A DNA stretch of 13,058 bases from Clostridia bacterium (GTDB lineage Bacteria; Bacillota; Clostridia; Christensenellales; UBA1242): positions 1-13,058 of the forward strand of contig JAFUJE010000033.1 in assembly GCA_017473795.1 (NCBI GenBank). The letters are read 5' to 3'. A model generated the notes under the pieces. It was given only the letters and a program-made list of their open reading frames with translations, was not told where the DNA came from and did not search any database. Both the position numbers and the translations under genes were made by a program. Positions 1 through 8,365 of this stretch are shown one piece after another. Positions within the stretch are counted from its first letter, which is position 1. Every line of letters begins with the position of its first letter.

Positions 1-816
1 GCCACCTTGACGGTACTGTGCCTTTAATTCGGCTAAATGTTTTTTATCTGGATAGAACGCATCTAAATACATAAACACAACGTTGCCTTCCACTTTTCCC
101 GGGTCGCTTACTTTGATATGTTGCGGGTCGGTGTACATTTGATAAACCTTGCGTTGTAATTCCTCCGCACTATCCTTAATGTAAATACAGTTCCCTAAAC
201 TCTTACTCATTTTACCAGCCCCGTCAATACCCACTAAACGTCCACGAGCCTGTTCCGGAATTAAGGCTTCCGGCAAAACCAAAGTCTCACCATACAAGCG
301 GTTAAACGTCGCCACAATTTCCCGAGTCTGCTCCAACATTGGCGCTTGGTCAGCCCCGACCGGCACAACCGCAGCCCCAAAGGCCGTGATATCCGCCGCT
401 TGTGAAATCGGATAATTAACAAAACCAACCGGCACTTCCCGACGATAACCCTTAGTCTTAATTTCGTTCTTCACCGTGGGATTTCTTTCCAAACGAGATT
501 GCGTCACCAAATTCATGTAAAACATCGGCAATTCATACAAAGCCGGTAAAGCACTCTGTAAAACAAAATGAATCTTTTGCGGGTCCAAACCAACTGCCAA
601 ATAATCCAGCATCAATTCTTCCACGGAAGATGTAACCTTATCCACATTTTGTGCATGATCAGTTAACGCTTGTAAATCCGCAATCATAACAAACATTTCA
701 AATTCACCCGTGGCTTGCAAACGCACACGATTCGCTAAACTGCCCGCATAATGCCCAATATGTAAATTACCACTGGGACGGTCTGCCGTTAAAATAACCT
801 TCTTTTCTGCCTTCAT
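1..816 (-). CDS. trpS: Tryptophanyl-tRNA synthetase, C-terminus cut by window edge
   Basis: This is a class I aminoacyl-tRNA synthetase that charges tRNA-Trp with tryptophan using ATP in the cytoplasm. The reading frame is open from the ATG at 816 to the window edge, giving 272 codons; full-length TrpS is usually about 330 residues, so roughly the last 60 are missing. The HIGH motif is at residues 19-22 in the context [16 protein letters not shown], which is typical of TrpS. KMSKS is at residues 202-206 in the context [12 protein letters not shown] chose this start because the HIGH motif then sits at the usual distance from the N-terminus and no upstream in-frame start fits. There is no Shine-Dalgarno sequence before the ATG; a promoter -10 lies 6 nt upstream instead, so the mRNA may be leaderless. 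The gene follows the second gluzincin-like gene on the same strand with no clear terminator between them. Confidence 0.96.
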
Positions 817-822
817 CTTGAC

Positions 823-852
823 AGTGTAACACACCCACCCGCACTTTGTAAA
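823..852 (-). promoter_or_regulatory. trpS promoter placing +1 at the ATG
   Basis: The -35 is TTTACA (847-852). An 18-nt spacer leads to the -10 TACACT (823-828), which is preceded by TGT and so has an extended -10 form. Counting 7 nt from the last -10 base puts +1 at 816, the A of the trpS ATG. No Shine-Dalgarno-like run lies between the -10 and the ATG. The elements are seen in the sequence; the leaderless transcript is inferred. Confidence 0.6.
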
Positions 853-870
853 AATTTTTCGCCAATAAAA

Positions 871-2487
871 TTATTCTTGCGTTTTTGTTTCCGCAGTTTC
901 TTTTCGTTGAATACTTTGAACCGGAGTTTTCAATTTCTTTAATGCGTGCTTTTCTGTTAAACTATCGAACTTTTCTGAGACGTTCCACATTAAACGAGAT
1001 AATTTCTGATAGACCGGTTTTTCCTTTTGTTCCCATTGACCGGCTAAATTACGGCTCTGGTCACGCACAAACATATCCACCCTTTTGACTAATGATTGCT
1101 TACGTAGTGCGGAATTTAAAGTTCTCGTCAATTGCTTGCTGGCTTTTTGTTCTAAATTTGCCATGGTACCAGCAAAAAAGTCCAGTGACCCGAAGAAAAA
1201 TTCATTACTGTCTGCCAACAAATCATTCAAAGTATAACCGTCTTCTGTGTTTATCTCACAAACCTTTAAATCATGTTTTACTGCCAACACTTCATTAGAT
1301 AACCTTGCAATCTTTTCAAAATTTTTCTTCCCAATAATCCGAGCAAACTCTTGTGCTGGATCTTCACGCAACATAACCTCTTTTAATTCCGGAAGATAAC
1401 TGTGCAAAAATTTCCCCATAATTTCAAATAACATTACATATATTGAATTCCTGTCCCTACCATAAGCAATTAGCGGTTTATCTTTTTTAATTCTCTCTTG
1501 CTTAATCAAAAGTGTCATGTAGTCGGTTATAACTTCATTAAACATTTCGTATTTTCGGATTTCATCCGAGTAAGTATTTTCTGGAATATCCATATTCAAC
1601 TTTTCAAAGCCAGTATTGCTAACTTCGTGAACAAATTCATGAATCACCGTTGTTTCACCCGGATTAATTCCGAAATAAACATTGCTAGAATCTTTACTAC
1701 GAGAACCTAACGTATCTGAGTTAGTAAAGAACAACATAGCCTCTTCATTATACTCGTGCATTATCACAAGCGGATCAAATTCGGTTCCGAAGGAATTTTT
1801 ATACAATGAATCATAAAAATCCAAACAATAACGCCGACATGCTTTCTTTACTTGTTTTTTGAATTTTGCAACAAATTTATCCAGAAATTTTAGGTTTTTG
1901 TTAATTGTTTGATTCTCGCTGTACGGCAATTTTTTAAATTTTTTACCTAAATCCTTAATTTGGTTAACCGCCAAATTTGCCAATTCTTCATCATTAATAA
2001 TGTCTTTACTAGCTATATTCAATTCTTCCAAACAAGCCACTAAATCTAATGGTGCCTCTTCCACATCCAACATCGCTTGCAACTTTTTGCCATTCTTATT
2101 AAATAAACTCAGAAAAGGGTTAGCAAATTTCTTAGCAATATGTTCATATAAAACGAGACATTGAAATTTACTTTGATACTTTTCGTTGAAACGTTTGATT
2201 TTCTCTTGCAACAAAAAGTCATAAGCCGAATTTGCCAATCCATCCGTTTGGTAAACAAAATTTATCCGAGTATTTGCAATTTTTTGGGTTAATTTTTCTT
2301 TATGATTAAATCCCCAAAATTGTATAAAAATATCCGTCAATTTTGCTTTCATACGGTTTTGAATTTCTTCTCTCGTTTCCAAGACCCCGTTTTCTAAATA
2401 ATTATTATAAAAAAGATTATCGCAAAGCAAAATTGCACGTTGTATATCTTTTTTTCCATATACTCTCAAAACCTGCTTTTTTTCCAC
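871..2487 (-). CDS. Gluzincin-like putative zinc metallopeptidase, paralog B
   Basis: This 538-residue protein belongs to no family I can name. It carries HEFVH at residues 283-287, the HExxH zinc-binding and catalytic motif, followed by FNEVITDY with Glu318. NExx[ST]D is the form that supplies the third zinc ligand in thermolysin-type gluzincins, so a zinc metallopeptidase is inferred. The His287-to-Glu318 gap is 31 residues, identical to that in its neighbouring paralog. No signal peptide or membrane helix is visible, which implies a cytoplasmic protein. Blocks shared with the paralog include CDNLFY, GVLET, INFVYQT, LKFLDKFVA, VYFGI, SYLPELKE and QLTR. The start is a GTG at 2487, with AGAGG five bases upstream. 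A second GTG at 2493 overlaps that ribosome binding site. The chosen start also aligns the two paralogs from residue 1 (MEKKQVLRVY with MTREKILERY). The C-terminus is Lys/Gln/Glu-rich and probably disordered. Substrate unknown. Confidence 0.85.
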   Translation of the reverse strand: MEKKQVLRVYGKKDIQRAILLCDNLFYNNYLENGVLETREEIQNRMKAKLTDIFIQFWGFNHKEKLTQKIANTRINFVYQTDGLANSAYDFLLQEKIKRFNEKYQSKFQCLVLYEHIAKKFANPFLSLFNKNGKKLQAMLDVEEAPLDLVACLEELNIASKDIINDEELANLAVNQIKDLGKKFKKLPYSENQTINKNLKFLDKFVAKFKKQVKKACRRYCLDFYDSLYKNSFGTEFDPLVIMHEYNEEAMLFFTNSDTLGSRSKDSSNVYFGINPGETTVIHEFVHEVSNTGFEKLNMDIPENTYSDEIRKYEMFNEVITDYMTLLIKQERIKKDKPLIAYGRDRNSIYVMLFEIMGKFLHSYLPELKEVMLREDPAQEFARIIGKKNFEKIARLSNEVLAVKHDLKVCEINTEDGYTLNDLLADSNEFFFGSLDFFAGTMANLEQKASKQLTRTLNSALRKQSLVKRVDMFVRDQSRNLAGQWEQKEKPVYQKLSRLMWNVSEKFDSLTEKHALKKLKTPVQSIQRKETAETKTQE

Positions 2488-2533
2488 AGCCACCTCTTTT
2501 CAATCCAATATATTAAAATAATTTTTCACTACT

Positions 2534-2562
2534 ATAATACCACACCAACCAAGCCAAGTAAA
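2534..2562 (-). promoter_or_regulatory. Possible internal promoter for the second gluzincin-like gene
   Basis: In the 111-nt gap between the two paralogs, TTTACT (2557-2562) and TATTAT (2534-2539) are separated by 17 nt. The -10 is preceded by TGG, an extended -10 form. The predicted +1 near 2527 gives a leader of about 40 nt that includes the AGAGG site. A second TATTAT-like box lies about 35 nt further upstream, but I see no -35 for it. The downstream paralog could therefore be transcribed separately from the upstream one. The region is AT-rich, so chance matches are possible. Confidence 0.4.
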
Positions 2563-7732: not shown

Positions 7733-8035
7733 TTATTTACTTTGACGTCGTTCAGCATGAATTTCTTGGTTTTCTGCAATTTGGTTTTGCGCCTGCACAC
7801 CTTCGATTTTAATTTGACCCAAGTTCAACATGCAGCGTCCTTGATCTTGAATCAGTAAATCTTTGTTTGCCAAATCGGTTTGGATTGCTTTATGCATACG
7901 GAATGATAAATCTTGACCAGCAACCACTTTTTTGTCATGACCCATCGCAACCGTACCACAAACCCCATTAGGCAACACAATAAAACCCGAGGCATTTCTT
8001 TTACTACTAGCTTGCGCTTCGTTTGCTTTCTCCAT
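7733..8035 (-). CDS. Hypothetical protein, 100 residues, apparently leaderless
   Basis: I do not recognise this protein. It is soluble in appearance, with no signal peptide or membrane helix. The first dozen residues are polar and Ala/Ser/Lys-rich. A Gly/Val-rich beta-prone core follows (SGFIVLPNGVCGTVAMGH, later CMLNLGQIKIEG). The C-terminal tail is charged and Gln/Glu-rich. The ATG at 8035 is preferred: a promoter -10 (TATAAT) ends 6 nt upstream, which puts the predicted +1 on the A of this ATG. The upstream in-frame ATG at 8053 would precede the predicted +1. There is no Shine-Dalgarno sequence. The gene is divergent from the HicB-like gene, lies 82 nt upstream of rpsL on the same strand, and has no visible terminator, so read-through into the str operon is possible. 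Confidence 0.72.
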   Translation of the reverse strand: MEKANEAQASSKRNASGFIVLPNGVCGTVAMGHDKKVVAGQDLSFRMHKAIQTDLANKDLLIQDQGRCMLNLGQIKIEGVQAQNQIAENQEIHAERRQSK

Positions 8036-8041
8036 GAGTGT

Positions 8042-8069
8042 ATTATAACACAAATAATTTCTTTGACAA
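8042..8069 (-). promoter_or_regulatory. Minus-strand promoter of the 100-residue gene (leaderless type)
   Basis: TTGTCA (8064-8069) and a perfect TATAAT (8042-8047) are separated by 16 nt. TGT before the -10 makes it an extended -10. The predicted +1 is 8035, the A of the ATG. Its -35 overlaps the -35 of the plus-strand promoter base for base over five positions. Confidence 0.7.
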
Positions 8070-8091
8070 GTATCAATTTATTGCCTAAAAT
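8063..8091 (+). promoter_or_regulatory. Plus-strand promoter of the HicB-like gene (leaderless type)
   Basis: A consensus TTGACA (8063-8068) and TAAAAT (8086-8091) are separated by 17 nt. The predicted +1 at 8098 is one base before the ATG at 8099. There is no Shine-Dalgarno sequence between the -10 and the ATG. The -35 is shared with the divergent minus-strand promoter. Confidence 0.7.
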
Positions 8092-8098
8092 TAGATAT

Positions 8099-8365
8099 AT
8101 GAAATTTACCTACCCAATGGTATTCATTTTTAATGAGGACGAGAATATCTACAATGGATATATTCCCGACTTAACTTTGTACTGCGAAGGTGAAACTTTG
8201 GAGTCGGTTTATGCCTGTGCTGAAGAATTAATCAAGTACTATTTTGAATTGGCTGTTAAATATGATACCGAAATTCCGACCCCTTCATCAATGGAAACTG
8301 TTTCTGAAAAATGGACTGGTTATAAAGTCTCATTAATTACCGCTGATATCCCCGACCAAAAATAA
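8099..8365 (+). CDS. HicB-like protein (orphan antitoxin-type domain)
   Basis: This 88-residue protein has the layout of HicB-family proteins: MKFTYPMVFIFNEDE, then YNGYIPDL, a CEGETLES turn, a helix AxAEELIKYYFE and a final IPTPSS. HicB proteins have a partial RNase H-like fold and neutralise the HicA mRNA interferase. Here there is no extra C-terminal DNA-binding segment, and no HicA-like gene is visible on either side. It may therefore be an orphan relative rather than a working antitoxin. The ATG at 8099 is chosen because a consensus promoter ends 7 nt upstream. The frame stays open further 5', but those codons lie over the divergent gene and its promoter. A terminator-like hairpin follows, inside the 3' end of the convergent membrane-protein gene. 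The family call is from recognition of the pattern, not an alignment. Confidence 0.75.
   Translation: MKFTYPMVFIFNEDENIYNGYIPDLTLYCEGETLESVYACAEELIKYYFELAVKYDTEIPTPSSMETVSEKWTGYKVSLITADIPDQK

Follow-up and report, generated by a model that had tools for sequence, protein, structure and literature searches.

We analysed a stretch of 13,058 nucleotides (hereafter the window), which forms contig 9 of a draft genome of 660 kb (78% complete) from a bacterium of the Clostridia, and which carries three genes with predicted leaderless transcripts. The gene of the tryptophan--tRNA ligase, trpS (1-816, reverse strand; TIGR00233 above the cut-off, Pfam PF00579), starts with the ATG at 816-814 and has its 3' end beyond the window. 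The gene of a 100-residue protein (7733-8035, reverse strand, ATG at 8035-8033) is present in three of the 59 genomes compared, and its product had no Pfam or NCBIfam match at an E-value of 0.001. The HicB-like gene, hicB (8099-8365, forward strand, ATG at 8099-8101), encodes a HicB_lk_antitox domain (Pfam PF15919, E = 8.6e-8, 32.8 bits for a cut-off of 27) and had no match in NCBIfam.

Three predicted leaderless promoters

We located a sigma-70-type promoter in front of each of these genes, with -35/-10 pairs ending 6, 6 and 7 nt from the ATG, as a preliminary description of the window had proposed. In trpS, the -35 box TTTACA (847-852, reverse strand) and the -10 box TACACT (823-828, reverse strand), which is immediately preceded by TGTGT, are separated by a spacer of 18 nt. 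The 100-residue gene has TTGTCA (8064-8069, reverse strand) and TATAAT (8042-8047, reverse strand) with a 16-nt spacer, and shares with trpS the distance of 6 nt between -10 box and ATG. The promoter of hicB consists of TTGACA (8063-8068, forward strand) and TAAAAT (8086-8091, forward strand), 17 nt apart and 7 nt from the ATG. The latter two promoters are divergent and interlocked in an intergenic region of 63 bp (8036-8098, both strands), where the -35 boxes overlap by 5 bp. Hence, two polymerases should exclude each other at this site.

No Shine-Dalgarno (SD) sequence was seen by eye in any of the three genes, and all three start with ATG. The SD score of 4 obtained by trpS in a crude scan is due only to a GGTG within the promoter spacer. 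Among the 14 starts inspected in the window, one of them the ATG at 4517, the layout of a -10 box directly before an SD-less ATG occurs at these three. The statement that the other genes here are SD-led holds for nine of the 11 remaining starts, which have a G-rich SD-like site (GGAG, AGGAG, AAGGG or GAGGGGG), and fails for two: the GTG gene at 2493 has AAGAG alone, adjoining its start codon; in the membrane gene at 9277 no SD is clear, and a TATAAT precedes the start by 15 nt.

Enrichment of -10 boxes at start codons

Genes were called with a home-made codon-usage caller, which uses no upstream signal. We defined strong -10 boxes as those keeping T1, A2 and T6 with at most one other mismatch. 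Box counts were summed over offsets from the ATG, and one gene may therefore count twice (25 boxes correspond to 24 genes in G000, the window's own genome). Expected numbers were derived from offsets 10-40; these contain the real promoters of leadered genes, and the expected values are therefore high where leaders are common. The sample covered 161 kb of the 660 kb of G000, and stretches of its relatives; G014, G018, G021, G024 and G029 were left out of it. The clade discussed below comprises the genus of G000 and three neighbouring genera. G027 is included among the near genera in the genus-by-genus counts, and is outside the clade in the clade pool of 11 genomes.

In G000, 24 of the 117 ATG genes have a strong box 5-7 nt before the ATG, whereas 500 shuffles averaged 3.3 and never exceeded 10. 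The repetition noticed in the window is therefore beyond chance. The clade pool contained 126 strong boxes at 5-8 nt in 613 ATG genes (22.3 expected), an excess amounting to 17% of these genes, and the enrichment was particularly marked in divergent genes (74 boxes in 186 genes, 9.2 expected). The signal was present in the pooled genus (70 boxes in 423 ATG genes, 12.0 expected) and in the near genera G012, G015, G023 and G027 (41 in 203, 6.3 expected), with the highest excess in G015 (17 boxes in 60 ATG genes). Counted strictly, the leaderless type makes up 12-15% of the genes sampled from the clade. About one in seven sampled genes seems to be transcribed from the start codon itself.

The enrichment is specific to the type of start. 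The peak is almost missing at SD-led genes, at GTG and TTG starts, and at internal ATGs; the internal in-frame ATGs of the clade showed no excess (58 boxes for 64.5 expected, n = 4371). Among SD-less starts, a box at 5-7 nt was found for 101 of 330 ATG, three of 27 GTG and none of 32 TTG. The genome scan suggested in the preliminary description, which here covered about one quarter of G000 and the stretches of relatives, gave a strong enrichment at 5-8 nt, concentrated in SD-less ATG starts, and the preference for ATG that it mentioned for other leaderless systems was found here as well. No excess was seen when the 16 remaining genera sampled from the family were pooled (25 boxes in 599 genes, 34.0 expected), nor in four further families of the same order (1 in 61, 1.9 expected), nor in named outside loci (4 in 668, 15.6 expected), which come from Selenomonadaceae, Lachnospiraceae, Lactobacillales and others. 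Two of these last four boxes lie in a single Oenococcus locus (2 in 16), and leaderless genes have been reported for the group of Oenococcus (Zheng 2011, PMC3160421, in the part available).

We picked 117 leaderless-type genes from 687 genes of the clade using only the -10 box, the ATG and the absence of SD. When aligned on the -10 box, their sites show a TGn motif (T 0.60, G 0.60) and a -35 box (T 0.85, T 0.66, G 0.50) at a 17-nt spacer. The -35 box matches in five or six of six positions at 47 of the 117 sites, compared with 2.1 in shuffles. For 115 leaderless-type genes the neighbour was known, and a rule based on strand and a 60-nt gap classed 99 of them as operon-first-like, compared with 93 of 212 genes with an SD score of at least 5, and 72 of the 117 are divergent. 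Leaderless-type and SD genes have much the same base composition directly 3' of the ATG. We scanned ten of the 25 leaderless-type genes of G000 for protein families and seven scored above the family cut-off; the families identified are rpsT, rpmF, recR, pnp, recD2, an ackA-type kinase and tsaE.

Some divergent pairs consist of two leaderless-type genes. In ten of 16 such pairs the gap is 43-75 bp and the promoters are interlocked. In G000, G001 and G008 alike, an ackA-type kinase gene is separated from a nucleotidyltransferase-like gene by 43-45 bp (L171, 3347-3391).

Conservation in orthologues and limits of the clade

We read the conservation of the three genes by eye (24 rows for trpS, 18 for hicB). 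The -10 box of trpS (TACACT or TACAAT) lies 6 or 7 nt from the ATG in all eight close orthologues of the genus, a count that leaves out G003, which has a different trpS, and G005, whose N-terminus is changed. A GGAG-type site is found at trpS of G011, G014, G016, G017, G024, G025, G030 and G034. For hicB, TTGACA and a TANNNT at 6-7 nt are present in eight of eight close orthologues of the genus; the TANNNT is also found at this distance in G012, G023 and G027, and at 8 nt in G003, and the gene of G015 has an SD-like site. The 100-residue gene has its -10 box at 6 nt in all three genomes where it occurs. The called starts look real, because an in-frame stop closely precedes the ATG in several orthologues: in trpS of G002, G006 and G007 the stop is the codon immediately upstream, and in hicB of G001, G006 and G008 it is two codons upstream.

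Orthologue pairs of leaderless-type genes, counted in both directions, gave a similar picture. Within the genus, 37 of 53 pairs have the box, 43 have the same start, four have an SD score of at least 4 and none has one of at least 5. The layout is thus conserved in orthologues, which, together with the frequency of the box in G000, supports the proposal that leaderless initiation is common in this organism. Conversely, the genus partners of genes with an SD score of at least 5 score at least 4 in 76 of 83 pairs and have the box in two. Outside the clade, one of 42 pairs has the box and 34 have an SD score of at least 4. Many of the same genes are hence SD-led in sister genera.

In a tree of the elongation factor EF-G from 29 genomes, the 12 labelled as leaderless form one side of a single branch with 100/100 support. 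This tree was rooted by midpoint only and leaves out G020; the label of G004 comes from trpS and hicB only, and that of G003 from hicB and from boxes at 8 nt. The signal covers the genus, being weak or shifted in G003, and three neighbouring genera. The simplest reading is a single gain of leaderless use in the clade.

Interpretation and alternative explanations

Judging from promoter position and conservation, we consider it very probable that the three genes are truly leaderless and belong to an uncultured lineage of Clostridia in which two modes of translation start coexist. RNA polymerase with the main sigma factor would start transcription at, or about one base from, the A of the ATG, producing an SD-less mRNA with AUG at its 5' end. 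This 5'-terminal AUG would be the entry point for ribosomes, probably 70S. The SD is kept by operon-internal genes and by many operon-first genes, which here include ribosomal proteins, EF-G and ABC operons.

Three other explanations were weighed. The mRNAs could be SD-less but leadered, with transcription starting further upstream and the A+T-rich box acting as a non-SD ribosome site or an S1 site. This fits the observation that 55-60% of the clade genes lack an SD by the scan (pooled) and that only part of them have the box, such that the remaining ones start otherwise or escape the strict rule. We nevertheless regard it as improbable, because the motif is a full promoter, with TATAAT, TGn and a -35 box at a 17-nt spacer, because it is concentrated in operon-first and divergent genes, and because some divergent gaps between two leaderless-type genes, at 43-63 bp, are so short that a further promoter would hardly fit without reaching into the adjacent gene. 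That the start codons are wrong, with the box upstream of a mis-called start and the real one elsewhere, is very improbable: the codon-usage caller did mis-call some starts, but in-frame stops lie directly upstream in orthologues, the start is the same in 43 of 53 genus pairs, and internal ATGs show no peak. Least credible is chance, by which an A+T-rich genome would place a TANNNT near many ATGs. The TANNNT alone is indeed frequent (76 expected at 5-8 nt in 613 genes), but the offset-specific peak is strong in the clade only, 24 genes exceed the shuffle maximum of 10, and those family members whose G+C is equally low or lower have no peak when pooled. At the level of the genome, chance is already refuted.

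Several observations weigh against the leaderless reading or its extent. The strict -10 rule is failed by trpS itself, and of the 25 leaderless-type calls in G000, one (4134-4490) has its start misplaced, the true ATG having an SD. Single genes may have a second promoter further upstream. In the wider clade, just 14 of 44 orthologue pairs keep the box. In the counts of orthologue pairs, hicB of G008 and G009 were scored as misses owing to mis-called starts, and show the layout when read by eye. The signal is weaker in G002 (10 boxes in 92 genes, 3.1 expected). G003, placed in the clade by EF-G, has no box at 5-7 nt in its 27 ATG genes, and its boxes lie at 8 nt (four) and 9 nt (one) (L199); the boxes at 8 nt rather than 6 perhaps reflect a shifted start or a short leader. 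Outside the clade, six of the 16 sampled sister genera contribute 109 SD-less ATG genes, which have six and five strong boxes at 6 and 7 nt, for a usual level of about 1-2 per offset, and G020 has three boxes in 22 genes (1.2 expected). The small peak in the six genera means that the limit of the clade is not absolute, and these genera may also have a few leaderless genes.

Translation machinery

Loss of the anti-SD was rejected as a cause of leaderless use: the 16S 3' end retains CCTCCTTT in G003, G005, G012 and G023, the four clade genomes where this end was seen. No 16S was found in the draft G000. Loss of S21 was discarded too, since this protein occurs in nine of 11 clade genomes and 55 of 59 overall; it was not found in the drafts G000 and G002. 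For ribosomal protein S1 there was no clean correlation among the matches listed, in which ten of 11 clade genomes have one or two S1-domain matches, the one of G000 lying in PNPase, and G015 has at least six, including a protein of about 350 residues in which two or more S1 domains were matched; two matches each are also listed for G010, G024 and G030, genera of the SD type (G024 so classed by trpS only). Genome reduction was likewise rejected as the cause, because the genomes of the 16 sister genera in the sample are of similarly small size (0.9-1.3 Mb) and show no signal as a pool.

Initiation factor 3 (IF3) differs in the clade. Relative to the family model, and worked out from match spans, IF3 shows a net gain of 3-8 residues in the ten clade genomes with an infC match, compared with one of 44 others. 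The gain is 8 residues in six genomes of the genus, 6 in G012, G015 and G023, and 3, from an incomplete match, in G003; outside the clade it is 1 or less in 43 of 44 genomes, including G027 (1 box in 13 ATG genes), whose IF3 is not lengthened, and 6 in G031. infC was not matched in G000, G004 and G007. In an alignment of 20 of the 54 sequences (eight from the clade), the additions consist of one residue at the RGR loop and several more around the C-terminal GR motif, whose GR is missing in G003. The extra residues of G031 are placed elsewhere (L342).

A lengthened IF3 might tolerate messages with a 5' AUG while the anti-SD remains intact. That such a change, a longer IF3 C-domain, opened a mass conversion of operon-first genes from SD to leaderless starts is a tentative idea that we regard as unlikely. 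IF3 is described as antagonising leaderless initiation, for which AUG is needed (PMC4611024, in the part available). The IF3 change within the clade is one evolutionary event, which makes the link a lead and not a result. Against it, the SD-type G025 is also lengthened near the C-terminus, past the end of the match (L347), and G011 carries the single extra residue at the RGR loop. The added residues are absent from the four solved IF3 chains compared, so that lengthening was rejected as a general requirement for leaderless use; one of these chains, 5lmn, we take to be from Thermus.

Gene content and host

We recognised no hicA toxin gene beside hicB among neighbouring ORFs of at least 60 residues searched with Pfam and NCBIfam. 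The neighbours of hicB are the 100-residue gene and a gene for a protein of 297-299 residues, both lacking matches in these databases. The HicB-like gene itself is common across the family, occurring in 33 of 59 genomes. Elsewhere in the window, two adjacent genes (871-2493 and 2599-4131) encode proteins of 510-540 residues with a similar layout and an HExxH motif each (HEFVH and HEFIH), suggestive of zinc metallopeptidases; neither has a Pfam or NCBIfam match.

The seven nearest named trpS loci have 90-98% identity. Six are filed as Clostridia bacteria and one as Prevotella sp., which is probably a misnomer; four come from the gut of water buffalo or water deer. Two rather different trpS versions exist in the family, with about 59-98% and 30-40% identity to the query (noted at L046 of G003, L044 and L045), suggesting replacement or transfer.

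Comparison with known systems

If confirmed, these results would place abundant leaderless expression inside the Clostridia, where start-site maps found it to be rare. Sister genera of similarly small genome size, mostly SD-led, would offer a natural comparison for the switch between start modes, which would also show whether initiation factors change along with it. Gene callers and predictors of promoters and ribosome-binding sites (RBS) tuned on SD-using Firmicutes may misplace the starts of this clade. Within the sources available, our literature searches found no published report of leaderless genes in this clade. We regard it as a known mechanism in a lineage for which no report was found. 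A GeneMarkS-2 survey is cited as predicting leaderless transcription in 21.6% of bacterial species (in the available part of PMC9581028).

The remark that such genes are less expected in Firmicutes fits the start maps of Clostridia, but not the leaderless genes known in Lactobacillales and Mycoplasma. The available parts of PMC7438776, PMC5171806 and PMC9045289 cover C. difficile 630, C. phytofermentans and three related solventogenic clostridia, and give, respectively, 15 leaderless genes, 4% of one class of starts, and about 2-3% of transcripts; the genes of the 4% class generally have another upstream start and an RBS. These bacteria belong to the same class as the clade and have few possible leaderless starts, at 4% or less. 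Among Firmicutes, leaderless genes were placed in Lactobacillales and Mycoplasma (Zheng 2011, PMC3160421). These resemble the clade in being low-G+C Firmicutes with TAtAAT boxes, a TG peak in several genomes and coexisting SD genes, but are of another class, and the string "clostridi" does not occur in the available text of that source.

The same layout is known from Deinococcus-Thermus, where, in the available part of PMC12340547, a "-10-motif" is described 6-7 bp before the ORF, mixed with RBS genes. The clade shares this distance and this coexistence, with a transcription start predicted from the position of the -10 box, and the TACACT of trpS is the form that the same source names as commonest in D. 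radiodurans. The two differ in that the clade has TATAAT and clear -35 boxes, and in extent: leaderless genes make up about 30% of ORFs in Deinococcus-Thermus and occur in all analysed species of that phylum, and they make up 12-15% of sampled genes in this single clade of Clostridia.

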